From assembly GCA_017411385.1 (NCBI GenBank), contig JAFQQF010000024.1:1-64000 (forward strand): a stretch of 64,000 bases of DNA, written 5' to 3'. A program made the position numbers and the translations under genes. Below the pieces are notes generated by a model. It had not been told where the DNA came from. It saw only the letters and a program-made list of their open reading frames with translations, and made no database searches. Shown here piece after piece: positions 1,178 through 16,027 of this stretch. The DNA comes from Ruminococcus sp. (lineage in GTDB: Bacteria > Bacillota > Clostridia > Oscillospirales > Acutalibacteraceae). Within the stretch, counting starts at the first letter, position 1, and every line of letters starts with the position of its first letter.

Positions 1178-1552
1178 TTATATGAAAATACCTGTGTTCT
1201 GAGCAATAACACCCAACACAAGGGTGAAGAAAATCAGCGTACCTGCCGTACTTGAGGCTATGCTCAGCGCAAGGGAAACCTTGTTAAGTGCGGTTACCAT
1301 TCCGAGCTTTTGGGAAAGCACGGCAAACAGCACGGCAAGCATAGCGTTAAGGTATGCAATAACAAGGCAGATTGCCATGGGGAGCAGTCCTTTTTCTGTG
1401 AACACAACGGTGAAGCCGAAAAGGCTCATTATGGTGACAAAGGAGGCACAAGCCATTGAGAATACAAGAGCAGGGATACCGAAAATAAGGCTGAGAGCTA
1501 GCTTTTTGCCTCTGTGCACCGTTTTGACGGGGTTTAATAAGCTGTTATCCAT
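1178..1552 (-). CDS. Small integral membrane protein coupled to ychF
   Basis: A 124-residue protein of unknown function with about three hydrophobic segments (from LALSLIFGIPALVFSMACAS, MAICLVIAYLNAMLAVLFAVL and LSIASSTAGTLIFFTLVLGV). Its ATG overlaps the ychF stop codon as TAATG, so it is probably translated by re-initiation from ychF. The layout resembles the DUF4190-type small membrane proteins of Firmicutes, but I see no signature that settles this. It is the last gene of the minus-strand ychF unit and is followed at once by a terminator. Confidence 0.75.
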   Translation of the reverse strand: MDNSLLNPVKTVHRGKKLALSLIFGIPALVFSMACASFVTIMSLFGFTVVFTEKGLLPMAICLVIAYLNAMLAVLFAVLSQKLGMVTALNKVSLALSIASSTAGTLIFFTLVLGVIAQNTGIFI

Positions 1553-2646
1553 TATACATTGAAGCGGAAGAGAACAACGTCTCCGTCCTTCATTACATAT
1601 TCCTTGCCTTCACTTCTGACAAGTCCCTTTTCCTTAGCTGCTGTCATGGAGCCGCAAGAAATAAGGTCATCATACGCGATTACCTCGGCACGGATGAAGC
1701 CTCGCTCAAAGTCGGTGTGTATCTTGCCGGCAGCCTGGGGAGCCTTTGTGCCCTTTGTGATAGTCCAAGCGCGAACCTCCTGCTTGCCTGCGGTAAGGTA
1801 GGAGATAAGTCCGAGTAGTGCATAACACTCGTTGATGAGTCTGTCAAGTCCCGACTGCTCAAGACCTAAGTCGGCAAGGAACATTGCCTTGTCCTCCTTG
1901 TCCATTTCTGCAATGTCAGCCTCGGTTGCGGCACAGATGGGGAGCACGGCGGCATTTTCAGCCTTTGCAATTTCACGAACCTTTTTGAGTCCTTCGTTGT
2001 TTTCGATGCCCTTTGCAAAGTCATCTTCGCTCATGTTTGCGGCATAGATGATGGGCTTTGAGGTGAGCAGTGCAGCAGTTGAGAGAAGCTCTGCTTCCTC
2101 TTCGGTGCACTCAACGGAACGGGCACTCTTGCCCTCGTTGAGAGTGTCAAGCACTCTCTTCCAGAAGTCAAGCTCAACCTGATATTTCTTGTCTGCCTTG
2201 AGCATTTTCTGAGTCTTGTCGATACGGCGTGTAACCATCTCGGCATCTGCAAGGATAAGCTCCAAATCAATGGTTTCAATATCACGTACAGGGTCAACAC
2301 TGCCCTCAACGTGAATGATGTCGTCATCGTCAAAGCAACGTACCACGTGAACAATGGCATCACACTCGCGGATGTTTGAAAGGAACTTGTTGCCAAGACC
2401 TTCGCCCTTTGAAGCACCCTTTACAAGACCTGCAATGTCAACGAACTCAACGGTTGCAGGAGTGTATTTGTCTGGGTCGTACATCTCGGCAAGCTTGTCA
2501 AGACGCTTGTCGGGTACTGCAACCACGCCAACATTAGGCTCAATGGTGCAGAAAGGGTAGTTTGCAGACTGTGCGCCTGCATTTGTGATTGCATTGAACA
2601 GGGTGCTTTTGCCAACGTTGGGCAGTCCCACAATACCTAATTTCAT
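1552..2646 (-). CDS. ychF: Redox/ribosome-associated ATPase YchF (Obg-family)
   Basis: A 364-residue Obg-family P-loop protein, the usual length for YchF/OLA1. The N-terminal P-loop GLPNVGKST (about residues 6-14), DIAGLVKGAS (G3 region) and NMSE at the G4 position are visible. NMxE instead of NKxD marks YchF and fits ATP rather than GTP preference. A coiled-coil insert (about 130-200) and a C-terminal TGS domain follow. YchF binds ribosomes and acts in translation-linked stress responses. The first 21 bases of the gene are the attachment site of the element at 2626-15276, so the present AAAGGAG ribosome site, about 10 bases upstream of the ATG, belongs to the element and not to the original chromosome. 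Confidence 0.96.
   Translation of the reverse strand: MKLGIVGLPNVGKSTLFNAITNAGAQSANYPFCTIEPNVGVVAVPDKRLDKLAEMYDPDKYTPATVEFVDIAGLVKGASKGEGLGNKFLSNIRECDAIVHVVRCFDDDDIIHVEGSVDPVRDIETIDLELILADAEMVTRRIDKTQKMLKADKKYQVELDFWKRVLDTLNEGKSARSVECTEEEAELLSTAALLTSKPIIYAANMSEDDFAKGIENNEGLKKVREIAKAENAAVLPICAATEADIAEMDKEDKAMFLADLGLEQSGLDRLINECYALLGLISYLTAGKQEVRAWTITKGTKAPQAAGKIHTDFERGFIRAEVIAYDDLISCGSMTAAKEKGLVRSEGKEYVMKDGDVVLFRFNV
2626..2646. other. attL: left core of the integrated element
   Basis: A 21-bp sequence (ending CACAATACCTAATTTCAT) identical to 15256-15276. It covers codons 1-7 of ychF. Sequence identity stops abruptly on both sides, as expected for a core site flanked by chromosome on one side and element on the other. 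It lies about 100 bases from the 3' end of the integrase gene. Confidence 0.9.
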
Positions 2647-2709
2647 TTTATCTCATTCTCCTTTAAAAAACCGTTTATTTATCAGGGCTTTCAGCATTCG
2701 GCGTTTTAG

Positions 2710-2731
2710 CTTTTACGCCATTTTTACGCCA
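2710..2731. repeat. Left arm-type repeat (tandem TTTTACGCCA)
   Basis: Two TTTTACGCCA units at an 11-bp period, within a 22-bp sequence repeated identically at 15109-15130 in the same orientation. The position just inside both element ends fits arm-type binding sites for the N-terminal domain of a Tn916/lambda-type integrase. The binding role is inferred. Confidence 0.7.
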
Positions 2732-2749
2732 AAATCGCATTGACTTATA

Positions 2750-3940
2750 TTAAGATGCGTCCAAAACCCGATTGTTTTCAAATTGCTTTACAGCTTGATC
2801 CATCGAATCGCTTGTTACGTGAACATAACGATCCATTGTTGTCTGAATACTGGCGTGACCAAGTAACTTTTGCAGAACCTTGGGTTGCATACCTGCCTCA
2901 ATTGCTCTTGTGGCGTAAGTATGGCGTAAAGCATGCATACAAAAATGCTTAATTCCTGCTTCATCACACAGCTTGTAGAGATGGGTGTCATAGGAACTGT
3001 TTTTCGACGGTGCTCCTGTACGCCAATTTATGAAAACGAGATCTCGCATAACAAGCTGTGAGGTTGTACCTGTTCGCCTGTCAATGTATTCCAAGGTTTG
3101 CGACAGAAGAGGGGATTCTTTCCTATTGCCTCGGTTATCCCATATTCCTTTGAGAATTTCGTATGCACGGTCTGTCAAGGGAATGGTGCGATAACTCTGC
3201 TGTGTTTTCGGTGGTCCTGCCCGCCAATATACTTGCTTGTGTCTGTATTCCAATGTTTTGTTTACCGTCAGCGTTCGCTTTTCAAAATCAATCGCATCCC
3301 ACGTAAGTCCGATCAGTTCGCCCGTGCGCAACCCAGTTTCAAGGATAAGGGCGTATTGATTGTAATTATGGGAGCGTTTTGCTGTTTGAAGAAAAATGCG
3401 CTGTTCTTCACGGGTAAGAAAGTGAATGTCATCCTTTGCTCTGACCGGCTTGGTGTACCGTACACCGTTCATTGGATGTTTAGGTATCAGATCATTCATC
3501 AGAGCCGCTTTCAGCATTGTGCCCATTGTGATGTAGGTCTGACGGATGGTGGAGCCTGCATAGTCCTCATCCATCTGCAATAAAACTTTCTTGCAGTGCA
3601 TAGGCTTTACATTCGCAATCGCCATTTTACCGATAACGGGCTGAATATTGAATTTGTATCGCTCACGGTAGTTGCGGAGCGTGTTGGGAGCTAAGTCGCC
3701 AACAATGTTCTCGATCCAAAATTCAAACCATTCATCAACCGTAGTTTCGGTCGGAACAAAAACACCATCGTGTTTATCGGCATATTTGCTTTCTTCAATC
3801 CAGTTGCGTGCTTCGGGAACGGTATTGAAATACTTTTCGTGTCGTTTGCCCGCTTTATCCACAAATCGGGCGTGGTATAAACCGTCCTTTCTTTGGTAAA
3901 TTCCTTTACCACATTCTTTGCCTTTGAGATTCTTTCCCAA
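2750..3940 (-). CDS. int: Tyrosine recombinase (Tn916-family integrase)
   Basis: A 396-residue site-specific tyrosine integrase that would cut and rejoin the att sites of this element. Visible parts are an N-terminal arm-binding domain (about 10-55, [14 protein letters not shown]), a core-binding SAM-like domain (about 65-165) and a catalytic domain with R205 (TGLRTGEL), H336/R339 (HALRH), H362 (LLGH) and the nucleophile Y372 (MDRYVH). All catalytic positions are present, so the enzyme should be active. The start is TTG at 3940 with AAAGGAG seven bases upstream. The gene reads outward toward attL and ychF, about 100 bases away, so its transcript may continue into ychF. The leader hairpin (3942-3973) encloses the ribosome site. 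Confidence 0.95.
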
Positions 3941-3941
3941 T

Positions 3942-3973
3942 GGTATGCTCCTTTCTCACATAAGAAAGAGCAT
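3942..3973 (-). promoter_or_regulatory. Leader hairpin enclosing the int ribosome site
   Basis: Read on the minus strand, GTATGCTC pairs with GAGCATAC and TTTCT with AGAAA, leaving one bulged base: a 13-bp stem with a small loop. The 3' arm contains the AAAGGAG ribosome site of int. Translation of the integrase would be low unless this stem is opened. Confidence 0.6.
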
Positions 3974-3987
3974 ACTACTACACTATA

Positions 3988-4016
3988 ATTATATCACATA
4001 GCATACTCTTTCTCAA
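3988..4016 (-). promoter_or_regulatory. Sigma-A promoter of int
   Basis: Minus-strand TTGAGA (4016-4011), 17-bp spacer, TATAAT (3993-3988). It lies between xis and int, giving int its own promoter. Confidence 0.75.
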
Positions 4017-4056
4017 GTGATAATTGTTAATTTTATAAATTTCTTGAAGATTTCGG

Positions 4057-4263
4057 TCAGATAATCAGAGCTTGGCTAATGAACTGTTCAAACTCTTTAC
4101 GCTTAACCAATTTCTTTGTGCCGACAAAAAGCACAAACGGACAGTTTGGGGAGCGTAGCATAGAATCAATTTTGTTGATGCCGATATTGCTATACTCTGC
4201 TGCCTCTCTGATTGTCAAAGTTACCTTTTCATGTATTGGTACAGTTTGAAGGTTTTCAGACAT
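4057..4263 (-). CDS. xis: Excisionase, Tn916 Xis-like
   Basis: A 68-residue small basic protein with a MerR-like winged helix: LTIREAAEYSNIGINKI (about 16-32) followed by a wing segment and KLVKRKEFEQFI. This matches the excisionases paired with Tn916-type integrases, which bend DNA near the element ends and direct the integrase toward excision. The ATG at 4263 has GGAGG eight bases upstream. It is directly upstream of int on the same strand, separated by the int promoter and leader hairpin. The family call is from sequence pattern and location. Confidence 0.85.
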   Translation of the reverse strand: MSENLQTVPIHEKVTLTIREAAEYSNIGINKIDSMLRSPNCPFVLFVGTKKLVKRKEFEQFISQALII

Positions 4264-4375
4264 TTTGTGTCCTCCTTTAATTGGAATGACACCTCAACGT
4301 GTGCCTCAAACTCCTCCTTAGTTTATTAAAAATCAAATTGGGTAGTTTTAAGGTATCGGCATTCGGCAAAGGAAC

Positions 4376-4729
4376 TCAGTATTTTTCTTCATAATAGCCA
4401 TACGTGGCTTCCTCTACATCGTTGTCTTCTTCCTTAACGATTTCTTCCGTGAGCGTATCCTTTTCTTTCGCAACCTTTTCCTCTCCGTTTGCTCGGCTGC
4501 AGAGCACCTTGGCTGATACGCTTGAAATGCCGAAGGTGCCATCATCCAAAACCAGGAACGAACGGGTGGACTTGTTGGATGTTGTATCGAATACACGCAG
4601 ATCATCTCTTTTGACACCGTATTCGCTTAACAATCTTGCGACCTTGTTGTAATCGGCAGAGATAATGTATTTTATCTTGCCGGCATCCGCAAAGGTCTGG
4701 TTACCGATATTTATAAAATTACTCCCCAT
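4376..4729 (-). CDS. RemA/DUF370-like small regulatory protein
   Basis: A 117-residue protein. Residues 4-80 (NFINIGNQTFADAGKI, then LVLDDGTFGISSVSAKVL) resemble the RemA/RemB (DUF370) fold: an INIG start, a central helix and a beta hairpin ending in a ...SSVS.. segment. RemA-family proteins in Bacillus bind DNA as oligomers. The last 35 residues are a Glu/Lys-rich acidic tail, absent from short RemA proteins. It starts one base after the stop of the 4731-5588 gene (TGA-G-ATG), so the two are translationally coupled. A role in controlling the element is inferred from context; the match is moderate. Confidence 0.5.
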   Translation of the reverse strand: MGSNFINIGNQTFADAGKIKYIISADYNKVARLLSEYGVKRDDLRVFDTTSNKSTRSFLVLDDGTFGISSVSAKVLCSRANGEEKVAKEKDTLTEEIVKEEDNDVEEATYGYYEEKY

Positions 4730-4730
4730 C

Positions 4731-5588
4731 TCAATAATCCTCCTTTTCAGGCTTAAAGTGGCAGATCAGTTTTCCCTTGCTCAGATCAAGGCTGTAGGTT
4801 TTCCTTCTCCGTGCAAAATCGGTCATACCGTATACCGTTACCGTGCCACCGATTTGCTGCAAAAGACCGATGACATCCGACTTGATCCATCTCTCGATCT
4901 GCGGCACAAGTATGCGTGTAATGGTATCCCGGTTTTTGCCGATTATATTTATATCAGAGGTAACGCCGAGAAGCTTATTGCATTTGGCATTGAATTCAGC
5001 CTGATTATGAGTGCCGCATTCAACCTCGTAATACTCGTTTTCTATGCCGTAGGTTTTTGCAATTACATCGGGGATTACACTTCTACCCTCGTTAAGCAGA
5101 ATTCGGTTTAACTTGCGGCTTGTAGACACCTCACGGTATACGCCTCTTTTAAAAAGTATTTTCTTCACATCCTTAATCATATAGCCGTGTTCAAGACTGG
5201 CGTGCTCCCGCAACAGAATAATATGCTCCTGCTCGGCAGGCTCTTTTCTGAATGTTATTCTGTAAAGATGCTTGCCCAAGTCGGTTGCAATTAAAAGCTT
5301 GAAGTTTCTATAGCCGGTGGATATCTTTTCTGCTCTGAGTACGCCTAATTTAATCAAAGCCTGAATTGACAGCCATGCAGTATCCTCGCTGATGCACTTA
5401 TCGTGCCGCTTGATGGTTAAATCTACAATCAGCCGTTTTGCTTCACATTCCTCCGAAACACCGGATGATAGAATGATCTGAAAAGTCTCCCAGTCTCGGG
5501 GTGTAAACCTCTGCAGCAACTCATTAAAGTGAGCTACATAAGCGTTGTTGCCGGTATCAATCGGCCTGTCAAAGTTAAATTCATTCAT
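4731..5588 (-). CDS. Winged-helix plus PD-(D/E)xK-like protein of a mobile element
   Basis: A 285-residue protein. Residues about 28-110 look like a winged helix (FTPRDWETFQIIL... to ...LLIATDLGKHLYR). The C-terminal half has PD at 173-174 and EVE at 188-190, then a Lys/Asn helix (NAKCNKLLG), the order of motifs in PD-(D/E)xK nuclease folds. This two-part layout resembles the Replication-Relaxation (Replic_Relax) proteins and the C-terminal modules of conjugation ATPases in Firmicutes integrative elements. Its exact role is unknown: replication initiation, processing or a degenerate transfer protein are possible. AAGGAGG lies a suitable distance before the ATG. It is the first gene of a minus-strand unit that continues into the RemA-like gene, xis and int. 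Confidence 0.5.
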   Translation of the reverse strand: MNEFNFDRPIDTGNNAYVAHFNELLQRFTPRDWETFQIILSSGVSEECEAKRLIVDLTIKRHDKCISEDTAWLSIQALIKLGVLRAEKISTGYRNFKLLIATDLGKHLYRITFRKEPAEQEHIILLREHASLEHGYMIKDVKKILFKRGVYREVSTSRKLNRILLNEGRSVIPDVIAKTYGIENEYYEVECGTHNQAEFNAKCNKLLGVTSDINIIGKNRDTITRILVPQIERWIKSDVIGLLQQIGGTVTVYGMTDFARRRKTYSLDLSKGKLICHFKPEKEDY

Positions 5589-5673
5589 GGTTATTATCCT
5601 CCTTGAAGTTTAGATTAGAGCTTCGTTTTTTAATGTGATAAGGGAAGAATATTTTGGCAAGTAAAAAGCAAAA

Positions 5674-5728
5674 CCGCACCGCTATCCAGAACCCTACCGT
5701 TTCGGTTTGGGTTAGATTTGCGGTGCGG
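5674..5728. repeat. Long three-tier hairpin
   Basis: Nested arms: CCGCACCGC/GCGGTGCGG (5674-5682 with 5720-5728), AACCC/GGGTT (5690-5694 with 5709-5713) and ACCG/CGGT (5696-5699 with 5703-5706). It could be a structured RNA, a terminator without a T-tract, or a transfer or replication signal. Confidence 0.7.
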
Positions 5729-5878
5729 ATTGCACATTGAAGGACTTATTTGTAACAAGGGGATAATGCACTAAGGAGCGTTGAATAGAGTTTACAGAAA
5801 CATATGAGACGTATAACCGGCGCTTTCGTTTAATGGGAGCAATTCTTAAATGCTATACTTTACAAAGATGATATATGC

Positions 5879-6215
5879 CCGTCATTTGCAAATGAAGATG
5901 ACCGTCATTTGAAAAAGTCATTCAGATTTATTTTTGATTTATCAAAGATTTATGGCATTCATTTTTTAATGATTGGGAACCCTCGTTTTGGAATGAAAGC
6001 AGAACCATCCTTTCGGAATGATGGGGTAATTTTTGATATGACAAGCTCTGCTTTCTCATTTCGAAAGCAGGGGGGATTTACCTCTTGTCATAACGAAAGA
6101 GAATATCATTTTTTCTATCATTTGAAATAGATGGGAAAACTTCCGAAATTTTATCATTCCGAAGCGTTTATCATTTTTCAAAGACTTTTTTAATTGATAA
6201 TCATTTTGGAACGAA
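5879..6215. repeat. Iteron-like motif cluster with nested inverted repeat
   Basis: At least seven TCATTT(G/C)-AAA-like or TCATTCCGAA-like motifs occur in both orientations, near 5881, 5903, 6056, 6116, 6153, 6170 and 6200. A 12-bp palindrome CATTTGCAAATG is at 5883-5894. A 9-bp inverted repeat TATGACAAG/CTTGTCATA (6037-6045 with 6084-6092) encloses an 8-bp hairpin CTGCTTTC/GAAAGCAG (6048-6055 with 6063-6070). Its function is unknown. Confidence 0.65.
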
Positions 6216-6634
6216 AATTGCGTTTTTTATTGAATTTTCTGCGATTTAATCAATTTTGAATGCACATCCTAAGTGTTTGCGAGTATGATACCCGACGTTT
6301 TTATAAATAAATCAATTATTACCCTTTAAGGGGGAACAGATTTTTTCGAAATTGAAATTTGTGTATTTGGACATAAAATCACAGCATTGTTCGGGGACAT
6401 CAGAAGTAACATTTCTGTCTTGTCTTTTAAGGGGGATTGGCAATTAAATTGAAGCTGTTTTGGACGGGGACATCTATTTGTACATTCACCAAAAGAGAAA
6501 AACTGCAATCTTCGGTTTGGCGAGACAGCATAGTTCATTGAGGTGTACAACGAATATTTAATTAATTCAGGCAGTATTAATGCCGATAAAATGATTTTGG
6601 GAATAATGTTTTGAAAAGAATTTGAAAAAACCCG

Positions 6635-6663
6635 TTGCTATTATTCCTCAAAAGTGGTATAAT
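6635..6663 (+). promoter_or_regulatory. Sigma-A promoter of the eight-gene cargo operon
   Basis: TTGCTA (6635-6640), 17-bp spacer, TATAAT (6658-6663), followed by CGGAGG at 6686-6691 and the Fic ATG at 6701. No other equally good promoter is seen before the 3' end of the operon. Confidence 0.8.
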
Positions 6664-6700
6664 GGTATTCGATATAAGATTTTAACGGAGGAAACTCATT

Positions 6701-7606
6701 ATGGATTATATAAAAGTAGCAGAAGCGGCAGCAAAATGGGGTATTTCCCCTCGGCGTGTTCGTGTTTTGTGTGCGGAAGGTAAGATCCCCGGTATGGTAC
6801 GCCGTGGTAAACTCTATATGATTCCTGCAAGCGCAGAGAAGCCTGCTGACGGGCGTACTAATCGTGCTACGCTCCTGACTGTCATTGACGCTAAAAAGGA
6901 TCAGCTCGCCAAGATGCGTCCCCTGACAGAGGGCGAGGTGGAACGCCTTCGTGAAGAATTTATGGTGGAGTTTACCTATAACTCCAACGCCATCGAAGGT
7001 AACACGCTTACGCTCAAGGAAACATCAATGGTTTTGGAGGGTATGACCATCGACCAAAAGCCGATGAAGGATCACCTTGAAGCTGTGGGACACCGAGATG
7101 CATTTATGTATGTGCAGGATATTGCAACCAAAGAGATAGATCTGACAGAGAGCGTTATTAAAAATATCCATTCTCTCGTCCTGGTAAACAGACCGCAGGA
7201 TAAGGGCGTATATCGTGCTATTCCTGTGCGTATTATGGGCGCTTATACCGAGCCTGTGCAGCCCTATTTGATCGAGCCGAAAATGACCGAATTGCTTGCG
7301 GTCAACAAAGAGCGTGAGCAGACAATGCACATTATCGAACGCATTGCACGCTTTCATCTTGAATTTGAGGGAATCCATCCCTTTATTGACGGAAACGGCA
7401 GAACCGGCAGACTGATACTCAATCTTGATTTGATCCGTAACGGTTATCCTGCTATCAATGTGAAATTCACCGACCGCAAGCGTTATTACGATGCTTTTGA
7501 TGCTTATTACCGCGACGGCAATGCCGATGCAATGATCGAGCTGATCGGTGAATACGTGGATAAACGACTGGATGAATATTTTAGTGTCTTGAATGGCAGA
7601 GTGTGA
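6701..7606 (+). CDS. Fic-family AMP-transferase with MerR-like DNA-binding head
   Basis: A 301-residue Fic protein. Fic enzymes transfer AMP or another nucleotide moiety from NTPs to target proteins. The active-site loop HPFIDGNGRTGR (226-237) is intact. The inhibitory helix motif SNAIEG (95-100, S-x3-E-G) lies N-terminal to it, so this is a class II, self-inhibited Fic protein and needs no separate antitoxin. Residues 1-45 (VAEAAAKWGISPRRVRVL, GKLYMIPASAEKP) form a MerR/excisionase-like HTH, a common head on clostridial Fic proteins that suggests DNA binding or autoregulation. It is the first gene of the cargo operon, with a strong promoter and GGAGG site, and ends 14 bases before the MmeI-like gene. 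Confidence 0.92.
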   Translation: MDYIKVAEAAAKWGISPRRVRVLCAEGKIPGMVRRGKLYMIPASAEKPADGRTNRATLLTVIDAKKDQLAKMRPLTEGEVERLREEFMVEFTYNSNAIEGNTLTLKETSMVLEGMTIDQKPMKDHLEAVGHRDAFMYVQDIATKEIDLTESVIKNIHSLVLVNRPQDKGVYRAIPVRIMGAYTEPVQPYLIEPKMTELLAVNKEREQTMHIIERIARFHLEFEGIHPFIDGNGRTGRLILNLDLIRNGYPAINVKFTDRKRYYDAFDAYYRDGNADAMIELIGEYVDKRLDEYFSVLNGRV

Positions 7607-7620
7607 TAGGAGATACGATT

Positions 7621-10386
7621 ATGACAGAAGCAGATAGAAAAAGAGCCGCAAAGGCTTTTGCAGAATATTGGAAAGATCGTGGTGACGAAAAGAGCGACAG
7701 CCAGTCTTTTTGGCTTTCTCTTGCCCGTGACGTTTTAGGTGTTGCAGAACCCGAAAAGTTTATATTGTTTGAGGAACGCGTAAAGCTGGACCACACAAGC
7801 TTTATTGACGGTCATATTCCCTCTACACATGTTCTCATTGAGCAGAAAAAGAAGGGCCTTAATCTGCGCAGCCCCATCCGACAGTCTGATGGAACACTGC
7901 TCAATCCTTTCCAACAGGCACAGAGATATTCGGCGGCACTGCCTTATTCACAGCGTCCCCGTTGGATCATCACCTGCAATTTTGAAGAGTTCCTTATTTA
8001 CGATATGGAGAAGCCTACCGGTGAGCCGGAAAGCATAATGCTTAAGGATCTCGGCAAGGAGTATTATCGTCTGCAGTTCCTTGTGGAAGAAAAGAGCGAG
8101 CTTCTGCACCGTGAGGAACAGATCTCCATCAAAGCCGGTGAGCTTGTAGGCAAGTTGTACGATGCCATTCTGAAACAGTATATTCACCCGGACAGCGAGG
8201 AAACTCTGCGTAGTTTGAATATGCTTTGTGTCCGTCTCGTATTTTGCCTTTATGCAGAGGATGCCGGTATTTTCGGCGGCCATCTGAAATTTCACAACTA
8301 CATAAAGAGCTTTAATGTCAAGGACGTGCGCCGTGCACTCATTGACCTTTTCCGTGTGCTCGATACCAAAACCGAAGAGCGTGATCCTTATATGGATGAT
8401 GCTTTGGCGGCATTCCCTTATGTAAACGGTGGCTTGTTTGCTGATGAAAACATTGAGATTCCTAACTTTACACAGGATATCGTTGATCTTCTCCTGCACA
8501 ACGCAAGCGAAGATTTCGACTGGTCGCAGATCAGCCCTACCATCTTTGGTGCCGTATTTGAATCCACCTTAAACCCCGAAACCCGTCGCAGCGGCGGTAT
8601 GCACTATACCTCTATTGAGAATATCCATAAGGTGATTGATCCGCTGTTCCTGGATGAGCTCCGTGAGGAACTTGCAGAGATTAAGGAACTGAAAGTTCCC
8701 AAGATTCGCAACGATAAGGCAGAAGCTTTCCGTGAAAAGCTGTCAAAGCTTACATTTTTTGACCCTGCCTGTGGCTCCGGTAACTTCCTAACCGAAACCT
8801 ATATTTCTCTGCGCCGTTTGGAGAATGAAGCTTTGGTTATTGTCAATCAGGGACAAATTTTGCTTGGATATGACGGCTTGATTAAAGTGTCCATCGGTCA
8901 ATTTTACGGCATTGAGATCAATGACTTTGCTGTTACTGTCGCAAAGACTGCACTTTGGATTGCAGAAAGTCAGATGCTCAAAGAAACCGAGGATATCGTA
9001 AATATGTCCCTTGATTTCCTTCCCTTGAAGTCCTATGCTAACATCGTAGAAGGCAACGCCCTCCGGACCGATTGGGAAACTGTTGTGCCGAAGGACAAGC
9101 TGAATTACATTATGGGTAATCCTCCGTTTGTTGGTCACCAGTGGAGAAGCAAGTCGCAAGCTGAGGATATGGAAATAGCCTTTTACGACCTCCCTAAGCA
9201 TGGTAAATTAGATTATGTTTGCGGTTGGTATAATAAAGCTTGTGATTATATGAAGAATACACGCATAAAAACAGCGTTTGTATCCACTAATTCTATCATT
9301 CAAGGCGAATCCGTGGGAATATTGTGGTCATTCTTATTTAATAAAGGGGTAGAAATTCAATTTGCTCATCGATCGTTTTCATGGTCAAGTGAATCTTCTA
9401 AATCTGCGACAGTACATTGTGTAATTATTGGAATGACTTATGGTAAATTGCAGTGTCAGAAAAAACTATATGATGGCGACAGAATGACATTTGTAAATCA
9501 CATCAATGGTTACTTAGTAGACGCTCCGGATATATTTATTCAATCACGTGGAAAGCCGTTAACAAAAGGGTTTCCCGAAATGAGTAAAGGTAGTCAGCCC
9601 ACCGATGGAGGATATCTCTTGATGTCCGAACAAGACAGAGTCGAACTAATTACAAAATATCCTGAGGCAAATGAGTTTATTCGTCCGTTTGTAGGATCAG
9701 ACGATCTCATCAAAGGCAAAAAGCGTTTCTGCTTATGGCTGAAAAATATTTCTCCTGCAAAATATCGGCATATAGCACCGATAATGGCGAGACTTAAAGG
9801 TGTAGCAGAAAGTCGGTTAAAAAGTCCAACTGCTTCCGTCAGGCGAGATGCTGACACGCCAATGCTGTTTACACAGATACGGCAACCAGATACCAACTAC
9901 TTAGCAGTACCTGAAGTATCTTCTGAAAATCGCAGATACATTCCGATATCGTTTCTTTCTCCCGAGATCATTGGAAGTAATAAATTATATATAGTTTCCA
10001 ACGCGGATAAGTATATGTTTGGTGTTTTGATATCAAACGTGCACATGGCTTGGATGCGAACGGTTGCAGGAAGATTGGAACTTCGATATAGTTATTCTCC
10101 TGCAGTCTATAACAATTTCCCGTGGTGTAATCCTACCGCCGAGCAGAAAAAGAAGATAGAGGAAACAGCACAGGCAATTCTTGATGCTCGTGCACTCTAT
10201 CCCGATTGCTCTTTGGCGGACCTTTACGACGAAGTTGCTATGCCGCCCGAGCTCCGCAAGGCTCACCAAGCCAATGACCGCGCTGTAATGCAGGCATATG
10301 GCTTTGATGTAAAGACTATGACCGAGAGCACCTGTGTGGCAGAGCTAATGAAGATGTATCAAAAGTTAGTTAGCAAAGGAGATTAA
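7621..10386 (+). CDS. MmeI-type (type IIL) restriction-modification enzyme
   Basis: A 921-residue single-chain restriction and N6-adenine methylation enzyme, close to MmeI in length. The nuclease motif is D63 followed by E74-Q-K76, matching the D-x(9-10)-ExK arrangement of MmeI. A helical spacer follows. Methyltransferase motif I (FFDPACGSGNFLTET) is near residue 379 and motif IV (GNPPFVGH) near 500. The target-recognition region follows, then a C-terminal helical tail (AEQKKKIEETAQAILDAR). Such enzymes recognise one sequence with a single specificity domain and methylate only one strand. The start is ATG 7621 with AGGAG 8 bases upstream, preferred over GTG 7603, which has no site. Bases 9200-10130 are visibly more A/T-rich than the rest, suggesting a swapped recognition module. 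It is intact and probably active. Confidence 0.92.
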   Translation: MTEADRKRAAKAFAEYWKDRGDEKSDSQSFWLSLARDVLGVAEPEKFILFEERVKLDHTSFIDGHIPSTHVLIEQKKKGLNLRSPIRQSDGTLLNPFQQAQRYSAALPYSQRPRWIITCNFEEFLIYDMEKPTGEPESIMLKDLGKEYYRLQFLVEEKSELLHREEQISIKAGELVGKLYDAILKQYIHPDSEETLRSLNMLCVRLVFCLYAEDAGIFGGHLKFHNYIKSFNVKDVRRALIDLFRVLDTKTEERDPYMDDALAAFPYVNGGLFADENIEIPNFTQDIVDLLLHNASEDFDWSQISPTIFGAVFESTLNPETRRSGGMHYTSIENIHKVIDPLFLDELREELAEIKELKVPKIRNDKAEAFREKLSKLTFFDPACGSGNFLTETYISLRRLENEALVIVNQGQILLGYDGLIKVSIGQFYGIEINDFAVTVAKTALWIAESQMLKETEDIVNMSLDFLPLKSYANIVEGNALRTDWETVVPKDKLNYIMGNPPFVGHQWRSKSQAEDMEIAFYDLPKHGKLDYVCGWYNKACDYMKNTRIKTAFVSTNSIIQGESVGILWSFLFNKGVEIQFAHRSFSWSSESSKSATVHCVIIGMTYGKLQCQKKLYDGDRMTFVNHINGYLVDAPDIFIQSRGKPLTKGFPEMSKGSQPTDGGYLLMSEQDRVELITKYPEANEFIRPFVGSDDLIKGKKRFCLWLKNISPAKYRHIAPIMARLKGVAESRLKSPTASVRRDADTPMLFTQIRQPDTNYLAVPEVSSENRRYIPISFLSPEIIGSNKLYIVSNADKYMFGVLISNVHMAWMRTVAGRLELRYSYSPAVYNNFPWCNPTAEQKKKIEETAQAILDARALYPDCSLADLYDEVAMPPELRKAHQANDRAVMQAYGFDVKTMTESTCVAELMKMYQKLVSKGD

Positions 10387-10389
10387 ATT

Positions 10390-11016
10390 ATGGGCTGTCA
10401 AAATTGCGGATCAGACTGGTTTGAAGTTTGGCTCGTTGTAATTGGTGCAATTTTAGGTTTTGCATTAAGCATCATAACAACACTCGTAAATAAAGCTATT
10501 GATAAACACGGAAAAATGCAGATTTTTTACAAATTAGTTTATCAAAAGAGCACCGGACAAAAGGCAAGAATTGATCTAAATGGCGGTGAAACTTATCTTA
10601 CGATTCCGCTGTATTTTGAACTGCAAAATACTTCTAATACTGCAAGAGTGATACGTGATGTGTGTCTGTATCTTTACAACAACGGCAAAGAAGTAGCTAA
10701 AATGGTTCAAATACAATACACAAAGGATTCGAAAACAAATGAGATTAAAAACAGTTTTGGTGGAGAGAAAAATTCATATTCCTTTGTTTTGCCTCCACTG
10801 AGCATTCAAAAACAAGAGTGTGAGTTTTTATATAAAGTTCCCACATCAAAGATTGATGAGTTTGCTTTTGATGAAATCAGATTTTCTTATTTTGATGAGA
10901 AAAATCGCCCTATGGAATGTGTTTTCTGTAAGGCGGAACGAGGTTGGGACGGCATTGACTTCAATTATGAAAACAATTATTTTGAATTGAAGTGCTCAAA
11001 AAAGAGGAGAAAATAA
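10390..11016 (+). CDS. Single-pass membrane protein, unknown, in the defence-like operon
   Basis: A 208-residue protein that I do not recognise. It begins with a CQNC motif (residues 3-6), has one hydrophobic helix (about 10-33, WLVVIGAILGFALSIITTLV) and then a soluble domain of about 165 residues, mostly beta-prone (LTIPLYFELQNTSNTARVIR, FVLPPLSIQKQECEFLY). The soluble part resembles an immunoglobulin-like beta sandwich, but this is a visual impression. The gene starts three bases after the MmeI-like stop, with AAAGGAG inside the end of that gene, and ends one base before the Mrr-like gene, so the three are translationally linked. Base use is more A/T-rich than in the Fic gene. Confidence 0.75.
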   Translation: MGCQNCGSDWFEVWLVVIGAILGFALSIITTLVNKAIDKHGKMQIFYKLVYQKSTGQKARIDLNGGETYLTIPLYFELQNTSNTARVIRDVCLYLYNNGKEVAKMVQIQYTKDSKTNEIKNSFGGEKNSYSFVLPPLSIQKQECEFLYKVPTSKIDEFAFDEIRFSYFDEKNRPMECVFCKAERGWDGIDFNYENNYFELKCSKKRRK

Positions 11017-11017
11017 T

Positions 11018-11629
11018 ATGGTTACGGATATTAATCCTTATAGAAAACTGGATGCCAATATATCGCCTACAGATTTTGAAATTTTTTGCTTGAATACTCT
11101 AAAAGCATACGCAGACAGAGAGGGGCTTAAGGATTTTAGTATTAAACATAACCAAAAAATTCAAGCAGATGATGGCACATATCAAATTGATGTTATTGCA
11201 GAATATACAGCATTAGGCGCACGCCATAAAGTGATTGTTGAGTGTAAGAAAAAATCCGAAAGCATCAAACGGGAAATTGTAGCGGAACTTTATGCAAAAA
11301 TCCAAAGTTTAGGAGCTCACAAAGGCATTCTCATATCCACCTCTGGATTTCAAAGCGGAGCTACTTTGTATGCTGAAAAACACGGAATTGCGTTATGGCA
11401 AATATGTGATAGGCGCATCAAACACATCTATAATTGCGTAACCACTGCTACAAACTTTTCTGATCGAATTATCTATGAAATGTTAATTGATAAGTTGTTG
11501 CCTGCACATTTTATGATGGAGTGGAACTGTCAGAGTGATTATCCAGAGACCGAAATATACCCCACAGCAACAATGCAACGGCAAGCTGCGGAAAAAGCAA
11601 GGACGATTTTAAAGAACAGTAAAGGATAG
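11018..11629 (+). CDS. Mrr-like restriction endonuclease
   Basis: A 203-residue protein with a Mrr_cat PD-(D/E)xK fold. The motifs are an N-terminal helix (SPTDFEIFCLNTLKAYA), QIDV with D58, IVECKKK with E75-C-K77, and the following LGAHKGILISTSGFQSGA strand-helix, which is characteristic of Mrr-type (type IV-like) nucleases. All catalytic residues are present. The residues after about 130 are specific to this protein and lack the winged helix of full-length Mrr, so target choice may come from a partner. It has an AGGAG site seven bases before the ATG and sits between the membrane protein and the FRG gene, with gaps of one and six bases. Confidence 0.85.
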   Translation: MVTDINPYRKLDANISPTDFEIFCLNTLKAYADREGLKDFSIKHNQKIQADDGTYQIDVIAEYTALGARHKVIVECKKKSESIKREIVAELYAKIQSLGAHKGILISTSGFQSGATLYAEKHGIALWQICDRRIKHIYNCVTTATNFSDRIIYEMLIDKLLPAHFMMEWNCQSDYPETEIYPTATMQRQAAEKARTILKNSKG

Positions 11630-11635
11630 CTTGAT

Positions 11636-12712
11636 ATGGCAAAAACAAAGATAATAGAAATAGATAGCCTTTCAAAGTATATACGACACATAAATAAGCT
11701 TGATAATGTTTCGTATTATCGTGGCGAAGGCAATGTTTATCCATCAAGACAATCATCTGCTCTTAGACCGTATGAGTTCAGGTGGAATTCTGCAGAGCCC
11801 TATCCTTTTATGCAGATGATTGATGAGTTTTATAAAGAAACAGCTCACAAACTTAATGAGGACAAAATTGACTTTATTGCATTTGCTCAGCATCACGGCA
11901 TCCCAACAAATCTTTTAGATATTTCAACTTCCCCCCTGACAGCACTCTACTTTGCTTGTCAAGGCAAGCAAGATGTTGACGGAGTGGTTTATGTGGGATC
12001 CGATGAACACATTGACGTAACGAGCTTGATACATAAATATCCTAATGAGAACTTGATTGAGAGTGTATTTGCCAATACTGTAAACGAGCTTGGTTTGCTT
12101 GTGCCGTTGTTTAAGCAGTTCAAAAAAGAGCATCCTGATACTTTTAAGTTATTCATGGGCGAGTTAATTAGGAGTTATCTGTTTTACTTTTCTTCGCCTT
12201 TTGATGATAAAGAGCAGATTTTTTACAAAAAATTGAAGCGTAAAAATTTTGATGTATGGGAATGTATCGCATATTTAAGAGACGCTTTTGAAGAAGTCAA
12301 AGCGTTTCCTTTGGAGTCGTGCGATGAAGAATTATACTTCTATCTTTCTTTGCAGTTTGTATTTTTCAAAAAGGCTCTCTCATATACGGAGCCAATTCAC
12401 ACTATAAGCTTTTTGCCAAATATGTTATACCAACCTATTATGAAGTTTGAACGCGGCAGAAATCAACAAGGATTGTTCCTGTATCAAGGATATTTGACCT
12501 ATATTGAACCGGTGTATAATTTCAGAGTGTTAGCGAAGCAACACTTGAATTTTCAAAATGTAGAGTTTCGCGTTAAGAACAAAACGACGATATTGAATGA
12601 GTTAGACAAGATCGGCATCAATAAGAAAACGCTGTTTTGCGATTATGATAGCATTGCGCAATATATAACTGACAAGCATAGCGTTCTTAGGGAAGAAAGT
12701 AAATTGAATTAA
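11636..12712 (+). CDS. FRG-domain protein
   Basis: A 358-residue protein with an FRG domain at about 22-110: YRGE (28-31) and the signature [17 protein letters not shown] (84-100), followed by [13 protein letters not shown] domains are common in phage and defence loci of gut bacteria. Their biochemical activity is not firmly established to my knowledge. The C-terminal 240 residues are rich in aromatic and Lys residues and carry a second conserved-looking stretch ([16 protein letters not shown], about 272-287). It starts six bases after the Mrr-like stop, and its base use matches the two preceding genes. Confidence 0.85.
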
Positions 12713-12725
12713 ACGGGGTGTATCA

Positions 12726-13745
12726 ATGCCACTTGAAATAGTTAGAAACGATATAACAAAAATGAAGGTGGATGCCATTGTCAATGCCGCTAACGAGTCG
12801 CTTTTGGGCGGCAGAGGTGTTGACGGTGCGATTCACCGTGCTGCAGGTTCGGGGCTTCTTGCCGAGTGCAGAACGCTTGGCGGTTGCAAGACGGGCAAGG
12901 CGAAGATCACAGGCGGATATAATCTGCCTGCAAAGTATGTAATACATACTGTCGGTCCTATCTACAATGACGGCAAACACGGAGAAAAGGTATTGCTTGA
13001 ATCCTGCTACCGCGAGTCTTTGGCTCTTGCGAAGGAGCATAACTGCGAAACCGTGGCTTTTCCGCTTATCTCCTCGGGTGTGTATGGATACCCCAAGGAT
13101 CAGGCATTGAAGGTTGCTATCGACGTTATCAGCGACTTCCTTCTTGAAAACGAAATGACGGTCTATATCGTCATCTTCGACAAGGCGGCATACAAGATCA
13201 GTGAGAAGTTGTTCTCGGATATTGCCGAATATATTGACGATAATTACGTGGACGAGCATACCGATTACCGTCGTGAAAGCATTCGAATGAATGCACCGAT
13301 GGCTCCTTGCGCGAAACGAAAGAAAGCAGATATTGACTTTCTGGAAATTTGCGATTGTAAAGCGATGGTTGCGGAAGATGACTTGGATGCAAAGCTCCGG
13401 CAAATCGACGAAAGCTTTTCGCAGATGCTTCTGCGCAAGATTGATGAGAAAGGCATGACCGACGCCGAGTGTTATAAGAAGGCCAATATTGACCGTAAGC
13501 TTTTTTCCAAAATCCGCAGCGACATTCACTATAAACCGAGCAAGCCTACCGCACTGGCGTTTGCAATTTCCTTGGAGCTTTCTCTCGCGGAAACCGAAGA
13601 TATGCTCCGCAAGGCAGGGTTCGCACTGTCTCACAGCAACAAGTTTGACATCATCATTGAATACTTTATCAGCAAAGGAAACTACAATATTTTCGAAATC
13701 AACGAAGCCCTGTTTGCCTTTGATCAGAGCTTGTTAGGAGCGTGA
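12726..13745 (+). CDS. Macro-domain ADP-ribose hydrolase fused to an HTH-like domain
   Basis: A 339-residue protein. Residues 1-165 are a macro domain of the YmdB/O-acetyl-ADP-ribose deacetylase type: [20 protein letters not shown] (15-34), [15 protein letters not shown] and the phosphate-binding loop SSGVYGYP. Such domains bind ADP-ribose and often remove it from proteins, nucleic acids or acetyl-ADP-ribose. A polar linker follows, then a helical domain (about 225-335: [40 protein letters not shown]) that looks like an XRE-type HTH. The same C-terminal module accompanies macro domains in other clostridia. It lies 13 bases after the FRG gene. It may act as the antidote or regulator of an ADP-ribose-based effector in this operon; this is inferred. 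Confidence 0.85.
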
Positions 13746-13806
13746 AACGGTAGTTGAAGTTGTCTCAACAAAATAGAACCGCAATAGTTTAGATGGAGAA
13801 ATGGTT

Positions 13807-14265
13807 ATGCTGGATTTTAATCAACAAAAATCAAGGTATTTATGGTTGATAGAAGTATTACAAAATTATAAGCTTGAAAAAAGTTTTACTGCAAAGATAA
13901 CCGAGTGGAATGAGCAAAATGGAGTCGTTGGTTTTCCAAGCAAGTATTCTCTTTGCATAGAGTATAGGGACATTCCCAAGTCAAATATGGACTTGATTTT
14001 TTACCTTGACCAAGATGGAAATTGGAGTAAAGTCGAAATTCTGAACATTGATGTTGCAGAAATCTATCGTCATCAAGGTTTCGGAAGTAGATTAATAAAG
14101 CAAGCGATTAATATTGCTAAGGTGGTTGGGGCTAAAAGAATATGCGGTGACGCCCTTGAAAAAAACGGCTATAGTAGCGTGGGCTTTTATAAAAAATGTG
14201 GTTTTGATATATCTGAAGATTCTAAGCCAAGAAAGTTTTATATGGAAAATATCCAAAACAATTAA
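13807..14265 (+). CDS. GNAT-family N-acetyltransferase
   Basis: A 152-residue protein of the GNAT fold. The acetyl-CoA-binding motif A is VAEIYRHQGFGSRLIKQAIN (Q/R-x-x-G-x-G/A), followed by a beta-5 strand and the C-terminal GFYKKCGFDIS motif. The substrate cannot be told. I chose ATG 13807 because GGAG at 13795-13798 is then eight bases away; the ATG at 13801 would be too close. The gene lies 61 bases after the macro-domain gene and is A/T-rich like the 10390-12712 block. Confidence 0.8.
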   Translation: MLDFNQQKSRYLWLIEVLQNYKLEKSFTAKITEWNEQNGVVGFPSKYSLCIEYRDIPKSNMDLIFYLDQDGNWSKVEILNIDVAEIYRHQGFGSRLIKQAINIAKVVGAKRICGDALEKNGYSSVGFYKKCGFDISEDSKPRKFYMENIQNN

Positions 14266-14291
14266 CCAAATTGTCGCCTGACATGCGACCT

Positions 14292-14341
14292 AACCTCTCT
14301 TTTATTGATGTACAATGATGACATCAAATGAAAGAGAGGTT
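14292..14341 (+). promoter_or_regulatory. Hairpin enclosing the ribosome site of the VWA gene
   Basis: AACCTCTCTTT...ATTGATG (14292-14310) pairs with CATCAAAT...AAAGAGAGGTT (14322-14341), about 18 bp with one bulge. The AGAGAGG ribosome site of the next gene is in the 3' arm. It is either a weak terminator for the upstream operon or a translational switch. Confidence 0.65.
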
Positions 14342-14348
14342 TTCTATT

Positions 14349-15005
14349 ATGAAAAACAACATTACCGAACTCGTATTTATCTTGGACAGAAGCGGATCTA
14401 TGGCAGGTCTGGAGAGCGATACCATTGGCGGTTTCAACTCGATGATCGAAAAGCAGAAGAAGCAAGATGGCGGCTGCTATGTTTCTACAGTGCTTTTTGA
14501 CAACGAAAGTGAAGTTCTCCACGATCGTGTAAAGCTTCACGATATCCCACTAATGACCGACAAGGATTATACCGTGCACGGTTGTACCGCTCTGATTGAT
14601 GCCATCGGCGGTGCCATTCACCACATTGGAAACATTCATAAATACGCTCGTCCCGAGGACGTACCGGAGCATACGATGTTCGTAATTACAACCGACGGAC
14701 AGGAGAACGCCAGCCACCGATATACATGCGAGCAGGTCAAGAAGATGATTGAGCGCCAAAAGGAAAAATACGGTTGGGAGTTCTTGTTCATCGGAGCAAA
14801 CATTGATGCCGTTGAAACTGCAGCTCGCTACGGAATCAGCAAAGACAGAGCCGTAAACTATAACGCCGACGGTGAAGGCACACAGATTCTGTACGAATCG
14901 GTTGCAAAAGCTGTTTGTAATGTCAGAGCAAGTGCACCACTCAGCGCTGATTGGAGCGAAGATATCAATGCAGACTATCTGAAGCGCGGCAAAAAGAAGA
15001 AATAA
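14349..15005 (+). CDS. VWA-domain protein
   Basis: A 218-residue protein made almost wholly of a von Willebrand A domain. The metal-ion site motif D-x-S-x-S is DRSGS (12-16), and TTDGQEN supplies the later MIDAS aspartate. Bacterial cytoplasmic VWA proteins are often scaffold or sensor parts paired with AAA ATPases or stress proteins; none is adjacent here. No signal peptide or membrane segment is present. I chose ATG 14349, with AGAGAGGT at 14333-14340, over ATG 14328, which overlaps the hairpin. It is the last cargo gene; a 16-bp perfect hairpin follows. VWA proteins of this type are common on clostridial mobile elements. Confidence 0.85.
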   Translation: MKNNITELVFILDRSGSMAGLESDTIGGFNSMIEKQKKQDGGCYVSTVLFDNESEVLHDRVKLHDIPLMTDKDYTVHGCTALIDAIGGAIHHIGNIHKYARPEDVPEHTMFVITTDGQENASHRYTCEQVKKMIERQKEKYGWEFLFIGANIDAVETAARYGISKDRAVNYNADGEGTQILYESVAKAVCNVRASAPLSADWSEDINADYLKRGKKKK

Positions 15006-15010
15006 GCAAG

Positions 15011-15045
15011 CGCCCCCTGCTTTGCGAAACGCAAAGCAGGGGGCG
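15011..15045. terminator. Terminator-like hairpin at the end of the cargo operon
   Basis: A perfect 16-bp G/C-rich stem (15011-15026 with 15030-15045) with an AAA loop. The following T-tract is poor (TTGTGTATG), so it may act mainly as a transcription block near the element end in either direction. Confidence 0.75.
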
Positions 15046-15108
15046 TTGTGTATGTAACGTTGATTATTTGGTAGTAGTATGCCCTTGTGTCGTTTTTTGA
15101 TAGATTAT

Positions 15109-15130
15109 CTTTTACGCCATTTTTACGCCA
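15109..15130. repeat. Right arm-type repeat (tandem TTTTACGCCA)
   Basis: A 22-bp copy identical to 2710-2731, in the same orientation, about 125 bases inside the right element end. It is a probable arm-type integrase site. Confidence 0.7.
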
Positions 15131-15255
15131 TTTTCGTATGGGGTTACGTAGAAATATATGAAATTATAAAACCAACGGCTTTCCCAAAAACCGCGTGCTA
15201 TCAGGCTGTATGGGCAATTATCGGATTTTTATGGAGATATGAAAACAGGTCAAGT

Positions 15256-15276
15256 TCCCACAATACCTAATTTCAT
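15256..15276. other. attR: right core of the integrated element
   Basis: Identical over 21 bp to attL (2626-2646). Immediately to its right, the minus strand reads GGAGGTTTATAAT before the duplicated ATG. This is the original ychF ribosome site and the stop codon of the acyltransferase gene. The duplicated start codon now opens only a short frame into the element. Confidence 0.9.
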
Positions 15277-15277
15277 A

Positions 15278-16027
15278 TTATAAACCTCCGAATAGCGAAA
15301 TTATATAGTAAACCCCGAAGATGAGGGGCTGATGCACAAGATAAACAAAGAATGCATTTGTGCCGAGTAGTGAAAAGAAAGGCACACGGCTTTTGTAAAT
15401 ACCCTCGGGCAGGTTTTGTTCTTTAAGCTTTCTGCCTGCAAAGACTCCCGAAAAGAAAGCAAACATCCACGGCAGTAGGGGGAAGTAGTCGGAATATGCC
15501 GAGTAAGGCGGGCGGAAACCAAACACCATAAGGAACTCCTGCTCGTAGAGCTTTTGGGGCAGATGAATACATAAAGGCTCAAAGCCCAGATAGCCTCTGT
15601 CTGTGTTGTAGGTTAATACAAACAGCACAAGACACAGTACAAGTCCCAATGAAGCGGGGATTTTCTCAATGAGCTTTTCTGTGACAGCATAAAATACTGC
15701 ACAGCATCCCAGCAGGTGAAGCACACCGAAGATTATGGGTGCATCGCTCATAATGAAAAGTGAGAAAAGGGTAACGACAAAGGCGGCACAGAGGATTTTT
15801 ATACCTCGGTTTAAGTTGTTTCTGCTTAGAATGCAGGATACACCGCTTATAAGAACAAAGGTCAATGCAAAAAGGGGACTGATGTATGCCAGAATATCAA
15901 ACATCTTCTGCGAAAAGCCGTGGTAAAAAACATAGCCTAAAGTGAACAGCGCGTGGTCAAACACCATGCAGAATACACAGAAGCCACGTATTTCATCAAG
16001 AAGATGTATTCGCTTTTTTGCCGACAA
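15278..16027 (-). CDS. Membrane acyltransferase, HGSNAT/DUF1624 type
   Basis: A 249-residue polytopic membrane protein of the heparan-alpha-glucosaminide N-acetyltransferase-like (DUF1624/acyltransferase 3-like) family: LLDEIRGFCVFCMVFDHA at the N-terminus, about seven hydrophobic helices, PLLPWMFAFFSGVFAG and the C-terminal NAFFVYLVHQPLI. The conserved D/R and His residues of TM1 and the last helix are present. It probably acylates a cell-envelope glycan; the substrate is unknown. The start is TTG at 16027 with a weak site. Its stop lies one base before the ancestral ychF start codon (TAA-T-ATG), so before the element entered, the two genes were translationally coupled. Confidence 0.85.
   Translation of the reverse strand: MSAKKRIHLLDEIRGFCVFCMVFDHALFTLGYVFYHGFSQKMFDILAYISPLFALTFVLISGVSCILSRNNLNRGIKILCAAFVVTLFSLFIMSDAPIIFGVLHLLGCCAVFYAVTEKLIEKIPASLGLVLCLVLFVLTYNTDRGYLGFEPLCIHLPQKLYEQEFLMVFGFRPPYSAYSDYFPLLPWMFAFFSGVFAGRKLKEQNLPEGIYKSRVPFFSLLGTNAFFVYLVHQPLIFGVYYIISLFGGL

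Follow-up and report, generated by a model that had tools for sequence, protein, structure and literature searches.

Eight open reading frames stand close together on the forward strand of a Ruminococcus sp. contig, within the 64,000-nucleotide stretch analyzed here (hereafter the window), and the question they raise is whether they make up one defence system, as an earlier note on this DNA had proposed. All eight were present as that note described, and the spacing it gave for the first six genes (14, 3, 1, 6 and 13 bp) was correct, with the next two gaps measuring 55 and 62 bp. Pfam backed the assignments of Fic (with an HTH_17 domain), the MmeI-type enzyme (five domains), Mrr_cat, FRG, Macro and GNAT. 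Two labels held in part: the VWA protein carried MIDAS-like DRSGS and TDG motifs with a weak Pfam match (VWA_CoxE, E=0.005), and in the macro-HTH protein the Macro domain was found by Pfam and the HTH part was read by eye, in a C-terminal region that had no Pfam match. Rfam gave no match within the window. The earlier note overlooked that the eight-gene set is carried as cargo on an integrative element of 12.6 kb (about 2626-15281), and this cargo comprises at least two modules, module 1 from Fic to FRG (6701-12712) and module 2 with the macro and VWA genes. The features on which the argument draws are as follows.

1552-2646, minus strand: ychF; the left attachment repeat covers its start
2626-2651, no strand: left attachment repeat, 26 bp, identical at 25/26 positions (96%) to 15256-15281
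2706-2747, no strand: arm-type repeat, partner at 15105-15146; 42-nt direct repeat, 81%
2750-3940, minus strand: tyrosine integrase (PHROG integrase, E=2.8e-77)
4057-4263, minus strand: excisionase of the Tn916-Xis family (PF09035, E=1.1e-34)
6635-6663, plus strand: candidate sigma-70 promoter for module 1, TTGCTA-17-TATAAT with extended -10
6701-7606, plus strand: Fic protein with N-terminal HTH_17 (Pfam, PADLOC, motifs)
7621-10386, plus strand: MmeI-type (type IIL/IIG) fused restriction-methyltransferase (five MmeI Pfam domains)
10390-11016, plus strand: ORF3, one N-terminal membrane helix and a predicted beta-sandwich (hydropathy; AF2 pLDDT 74)
11018-11629, plus strand: Mrr-type PD-(D/E)xK nuclease, 203 aa (PF04471, E=3.6e-15; D58...VECK)
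11636-12712, plus strand: FRG-domain protein (PF08867, E=1.3e-16; PADLOC PDC-S15)
12726-13745, plus strand: Macro domain (PF01661, E=8.3e-48) with a C-terminal region read as HTH-like
13801-14265, plus strand: GNAT acetyltransferase (Pfam), GC 0.338
14273-14290, plus strand: palindrome GTCGC-N7-GCGACC upstream of VWA
14311-14316, plus strand: -10-like box TACAAT of VWA, 20 nt after the palindrome
14328-15005, plus strand: VWA protein (DRSGS, TDG)
15011-15045, no strand: perfect inverted repeat of 16 bp resembling a terminator, predicted only on the minus strand
15256-15281, no strand: right attachment repeat, start-to-start distance from the left copy 12630

Integrative element at ychF

The element possessed an integrase, an excisionase and direct-repeat ends, and its site was found empty in relatives. 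A sequence resembling the left attachment repeat was situated at the ychF start of relatives, and the integrase, present in 11 of the 148 genomes searched (own included), adjoined ychF in all eight stretches obtained from 8 of the 10 other genomes. None of the eight genes was found in those stretches (tblastn, 1e-6). In two relatives (G028 and G010) the acyltransferase gene of our right flank lay a few bases from the ychF start, and we therefore interpret them as carrying the empty site; in a third (G026) the same site was occupied by a different element, one encoding a resolvase and a collagen-like protein. Two further genomes encoded PADLOC candidates near the integrase, an AAA-DUF4143 protein (PDC-S01, G078) and a KAP NTPase (PDC-S49, G055), both placed by proximity and not by element ends. 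As an insertion site with exchangeable cargo, ychF indicates where further systems may be sought.

Two other stretches of the element lie outside the eight genes. The minus strand at 4376-5588 encoded a RemA-like protein and a 285-aa protein (4731-5588); the latter, considered as a possible conjugation or mobilisation protein of the element, had no match in Pfam, PADLOC, NCBIfam or PHROG, and may resemble replication-relaxation proteins. The following ~1 kb (5590-6630) contained no ORF of at least 80 aa and, by eye, many short TCATTT/ATTTGAA-like stretches, and could be a replication or transfer origin.

Macro and VWA genes as a separate module

The earlier note had placed a single promoter ahead of all eight genes. 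Promoter-like sites in the region occurred at chance frequency (25 observed vs 26.5 +/- 3.6 in shuffles), and VWA was preceded at 14273-14316 by its own conserved promoter-like element, at odds with one promoter for the whole set. Matches to the macro-HTH protein occurred in 76 of the 148 genomes, the window's own among them, and many covered one part only; we fetched 16 loci in which the match ran along nearly the whole protein. VWA lay downstream of macro, on the same strand and within 1.3 kb, in 15 of the 16, and none contained Fic, MmeI, ORF3, Mrr or FRG (tblastn, 1e-10). The matched ends of macro and VWA were usually 67-170 bp apart, rising to 562, 838 and 1214 bp in three loci; the window, in which the GNAT gene sits between the two, resembles these three. 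The 15 relatives having both genes showed no GNAT match in the interval between them, and in the window the gene was apparently inserted. GC content likewise fell into blocks (Fic-MmeI 0.44-0.47; ORF3-Mrr-FRG 0.34-0.37; macro and VWA 0.47; GNAT 0.34), which points to a cargo assembled from pieces, though such blocks fit a cooperative as well as a mosaic reading. A single eight-gene operon is unsupported and was rejected, since macro and VWA constitute a widespread pair in their own right, equipped with a promoter-like element. The proposal of one integrated eight-gene defence system does account for the common strand and the near contiguity of the first six genes, but given this independent pair, the inserted look of GNAT and the octet's absence from all fetched loci checked, we consider it extremely unlikely.

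The palindrome upstream of VWA is the best supported new regularity of the region. It was present in 27 of 28 VWA loci, comprising the window, 14 of 15 macro loci (L120 being the one without) and 12 of 12 loci with an HTH-only protein, and was absent from all nine macro or HTH loci that lacked VWA and from 720,600 bp of 48 other loci. All of these loci were found via the macro or HTH protein and those without VWA lacked the palindrome, which ties it to VWA. A -10-like hexamer (at least 4/6 matches to TATAAT) followed at exactly 20 nt in 26 of the 27 and at 19 nt in L103, the intervening bases being variable. The hexamer at 20 nt was the best-matching one in 22 of the 26, a better one lying 25-33 nt away in L105, L108, L215 and L219. 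We regard the palindrome as a candidate operator to which the HTH part of the macro protein might bind; since it precedes VWA genes beside macro-HTH or HTH-only proteins, a possible regulator linked to ADP-ribose becomes open to direct test. The position of the -10 box, together with the relatives, suggests that VWA in fact starts at the ATG at 14349. An inverted repeat (AACCTCTCTTTTATT / AATGAAAGAGAGGTT) was also seen at 14292-14341, around the start region of VWA, and in several relatives repeats of differing sequence followed the -10 box by eye.

As an outside check, an exact scan of viral contigs with an extended form of the pattern returned 70 matches. Three (L222, L229 and L247) immediately preceded a VWA gene that shares 62-63% identity with that of the window, and the remaining 67 had no VWA match and are presumably chance. 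L222 and L229 also carried macro-HTH, and since these viral contigs hold both genes the macro-VWA pair may travel on prophages.

The 13 bp between FRG and macro raise a further possibility, an ADP-ribosylating toxin with a macro-domain antitoxin in the manner of DarT/DarG. In the available text of PMC9503650, FRG belongs to the ART superfamily and is a potential antiviral effector and possible NADase, and the macro gene follows immediately downstream. However, the macro-HTH protein occurred without FRG in 16 of 16 loci checked, all ten FRG loci checked lacked such a macro protein at 1e-6, and the NCBIfam model that exceeded its cutoff was O-acetyl-ADP-ribose deacetylase (NF001664, 210.7 bits, cutoff 200). 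As a macro antitoxin and an ART toxin failed to co-occur, the pair was rejected as unsupported, and we consider this reading very unlikely.

Proposed restriction-modification operon and its membrane protein

Class II Fic proteins combine the core HxFx(D/E)GNGRxxR with an upstream (S/T)xxxE(G/N) motif, and the window Fic possessed both, with the core HPFIDGNGRTGR at 226 and the inhibitory-type SNAIEG at 95. This arrangement is the class II layout given in the accessible portion of PMC12249575. The PADLOC SoFic model matched (E=1.7e-26) and the cutoff of the SoFic equivalog NF046030 was missed (37.4 vs 550 bits). The MmeI-type enzyme contained the complete chain of N, helical, MTase, TRD and C domains that identifies type IIL, with a PADLOC REase_MTase_IIG score of 1147.9 bits, the motifs DPACGSGNF and NPPF, and the PD-ExK residues D63...E74-Q-K76 in its N domain. 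For FRG, no useful PDB relative was found by sequence (best E 0.29, EDS1), and the AF2 model, built from three sequences, was unusable at pLDDT 41. Catalytic motifs were present in Fic, MmeI, Mrr and macro.

The informative gene of module 1 is ORF3, which, from sequence and gene neighbourhood, appears to represent a membrane family associated with restriction-modification (R-M) that corresponds to no named family. It had no match in Pfam, PADLOC or NCBIfam at 0.01 and one weak match to a PHROG of unknown function (E=1.1e-5); a profile search against the PDB was empty, and the fold search returned nothing below E 1e-3, only scattered beta-sandwiches. Relatives were found in 5 of 390 other genomes of the class (one weak), in 1 of 163 other genomes of the phylum, in nine Enterococcus faecium plasmids and, by a genome-contig scan reaching close relatives only, in one Treponema metagenome-assembled genome. 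Phages gave no match, and a single-sequence scan of viral contigs returned no relative. In Treponema, ORF3 (64% identical) came directly after a MmeI enzyme (55% identical, all five domains) with overlapping ORFs, at a locus without Fic, Mrr or FRG. The two type I operons that contained ORF3 had closely similar orders, Fic-HsdM-HsdS-ORF3-DUF6119-HsdR-Mrr in G418 (same class) and Fic-HsdM-HsdS-ORF3-HsdR-Mrr in G687 (same phylum, another class), with all genes except ORF3 assigned by Pfam. Between these two, the SoFic-like Fic proteins were 65% identical and the R proteins likewise, whereas the Mrr proteins were only 26% alike. Their Fic proteins were 32-41% identical to that of the window over 69-106 aa and their Mrr proteins 22-24% identical to its Mrr, so that it is the class of gene that recurs and not orthologues.

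Elsewhere, ORF3 followed an AbiTii gene in G287 and G352 (L019 and L020), where type I genes were located no more than about 6 kb away, and again in the E. faecium plasmids (L015), where a type ISP fragment, an EcoRI-type methylase and a GmrSD-like gene were near; no R-M gene was detected among the genes scanned near ORF3 in G455 (L021). R-M genes thus lay near ORF3 in 6 of the 7 non-window loci kept, counting the nine plasmids as one locus and dropping L022 (6 of 8 with it included), a weak match (29% over 97 aa, E 1.9e-4; no match at 1e-6) whose neighbours read as sigma/anti-sigma. FRG was found in none of the other ORF3 loci.

The remaining genes of module 1 were mostly found apart. MmeI had matches at 1e-60 in 20 of 391 genomes, counting its own, and in the 20 other MmeI regions fetched, which leave out the G180 hit, none of the remaining eight-gene set was detected (tblastn, 1e-6; several regions end at contig ends). 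Among 255 plasmid records with MmeI, the five examined had no Fic, FRG or Mrr annotated beside it, in records whose annotation was incomplete. A Fic candidate beside one other MmeI was rejected, as the weak blastp match carries no Fic domain. The window's own genome encoded a second MmeI-type enzyme (G000:C13:3272-6010, L049), 64% identical and without the accessory genes. Fic was matched in 21 of 148 genomes at 1e-30 (own included); nine of its neighbourhoods among relatives contained no MmeI, ORF3, Mrr or FRG, and one of the nine had a macro gene about 8 kb away. FRG was found in 5 of 148 relatives at 1e-3 and 5 of 391 genomes at 1e-15 (own included in both), in 60 plasmid and 7 phage records and, when an FRG alignment was used to search viral contigs, in three contigs (none with a single sequence). 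It came after HsdR-M-S in Cetobacterium; a short FRG gene followed HsdS and a SIR2 protein in G236, and Fic, RelA/SpoT and FRG were near one another in G495.

The idea that these genes belong together was hence borne out in part: MmeI with ORF3 recurred in another phylum, the classes Fic, R-M, ORF3 and Mrr around type I R-M, and FRG after an HsdR-M-S operon. Neither the octet nor the full five-gene set of module 1 was found elsewhere in the loci searched, and the trio of ORF3, Mrr and FRG (10390-12712) that the earlier note had singled out did not occur as a trio in any of the loci fetched and checked for MmeI, Fic, ORF3, FRG and the integrase. A defence-island mosaic, in which independent defence or toxin genes are merely co-transcribed and share no mechanism beyond MmeI with ORF3, would be consistent with MmeI standing without these genes in the 20 regions and five plasmid loci, Fic in its nine neighbourhoods and FRG in phage TP901-1, a P2-like phage and a plasmid, as well as with the GC blocks and with related-integrase stretches that hold none of the eight genes and in two cases hold other PADLOC candidates. 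Set against it are the gaps of 1-14 bp, the MmeI-ORF3 pair in two phyla and the repeated Fic/R-M/ORF3/Mrr order in type I operons, and we regard the mosaic as a serious possibility but a somewhat doubtful one. Because that pair and that order recur, as does FRG after HsdR-M-S, an R-M-centred unit is reasonable. Our main reading, to which we assign a probability of roughly 0.5, is that the finding is the cargo of the 12.6-kb element at ychF with module 1 as an R-M operon with accessory effectors; the sequence evidence for it consists of the element ends, the empty site, the catalytic motifs, the Treponema pair and the type I-operon order.

More tentatively still, and with doubt outweighing confidence, ORF3 might found an undescribed family of membrane-anchored partners of R-M enzymes (MmeI, type I and possibly type ISP), which would tether restriction to the membrane or connect a breakdown of restriction with abortive effectors (Fic, FRG, AbiTii, TIR), in an order Fic-R-M-ORF3-Mrr that recurs independent of R-M type. 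The usual restriction schemes are not known to include a membrane component. Should ORF3 prove to be a true R-M partner, restriction would gain one, and the neighbours Fic, FRG, AbiTii and TIR would hint at a common coupling of restriction to cell shutdown.

Proposed mechanism and comparison with known systems

The region is real, mobile and defence-like, a variant of an R-M operon and not a new eight-gene system, with ORF3 as its most novel part. Layered accessory effectors around such an operon are a plausible but tentative arrangement. As a first layer, the MmeI-like enzyme would methylate self DNA and cut unmodified DNA. Held in the membrane, ORF3 may bind or position the R-M enzyme near the site of DNA entry or relay its state, a role suggested by its predicted membrane helix and its neighbours. 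Mrr would cut foreign-methylated DNA and so complement MmeI. When restriction fails, Fic, as an autoinhibited AMPylator, and FRG, as a NAD-using ART-like enzyme, would shut the cell down. SoFic defence combines AMPylation with an N-terminal inhibitory helix (available text of PMC12249575), an N-terminal layout that the window Fic shares by motif, and multi-pronged defence joined to R-M has a precedent in HEPN effectors (PMC3710099, in the part available). It is from these FRG, SoFic and R-M-effector precedents, as far as the accessible parts of PMC9503650, PMC12249575 and PMC3710099 describe them, that we infer restriction first and cell shutdown second. Macro-HTH and VWA would act separately, the HTH protein possibly controlling VWA via the palindrome and the macro domain sensing ADP-ribose derivatives, with GNAT as a probable passenger. 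Among the matches listed, the open-licence literature offered no account of this gene set, of the element at ychF or of the palindrome of the macro-VWA pair.

All parts of module 1 but ORF3 have known counterparts. Like type IV Mrr nucleases, the window Mrr contained Mrr_cat with D...ExK, but Mrr_N was not detected in it by Pfam. The window FRG protein shares its domain with FRG effectors (PADLOC PDC-S15; PMC9503650, in the available text), whose relatives occur in phages and plasmids, whereas the putative effector of the window sits in a MmeI operon. The Fic core and N-terminal inhibitory-type motif are common to the window and SoFic (PADLOC SoFic, PDC-S04; accessible text of PMC12249575), though the window Fic has an N-terminal HTH_17 and, by Pfam, no SoFic C-terminal domain. 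Compared with MmeI itself, of type IIL, the window enzyme shares the five Pfam domains, the MTase motifs and the D...E-x-K triad, with a D-to-E spacing one residue longer than in the nuclease residues D70...E80-M-K82 of MmeI (PMC4833311, in the part available), and downstream of it come ORF3, Mrr and FRG, none of which occurs in the 20 other MmeI regions fetched. A further parallel is offered by PrrC, RloC and the other HEPN associations (PMC3710099, as far as its available text goes), which like the window place a restriction enzyme and a cell-damaging second line in one neighbourhood; there the effectors cut RNA, whereas the window, with no HEPN domain among its Pfam matches, instead encodes Fic, FRG and a membrane protein.
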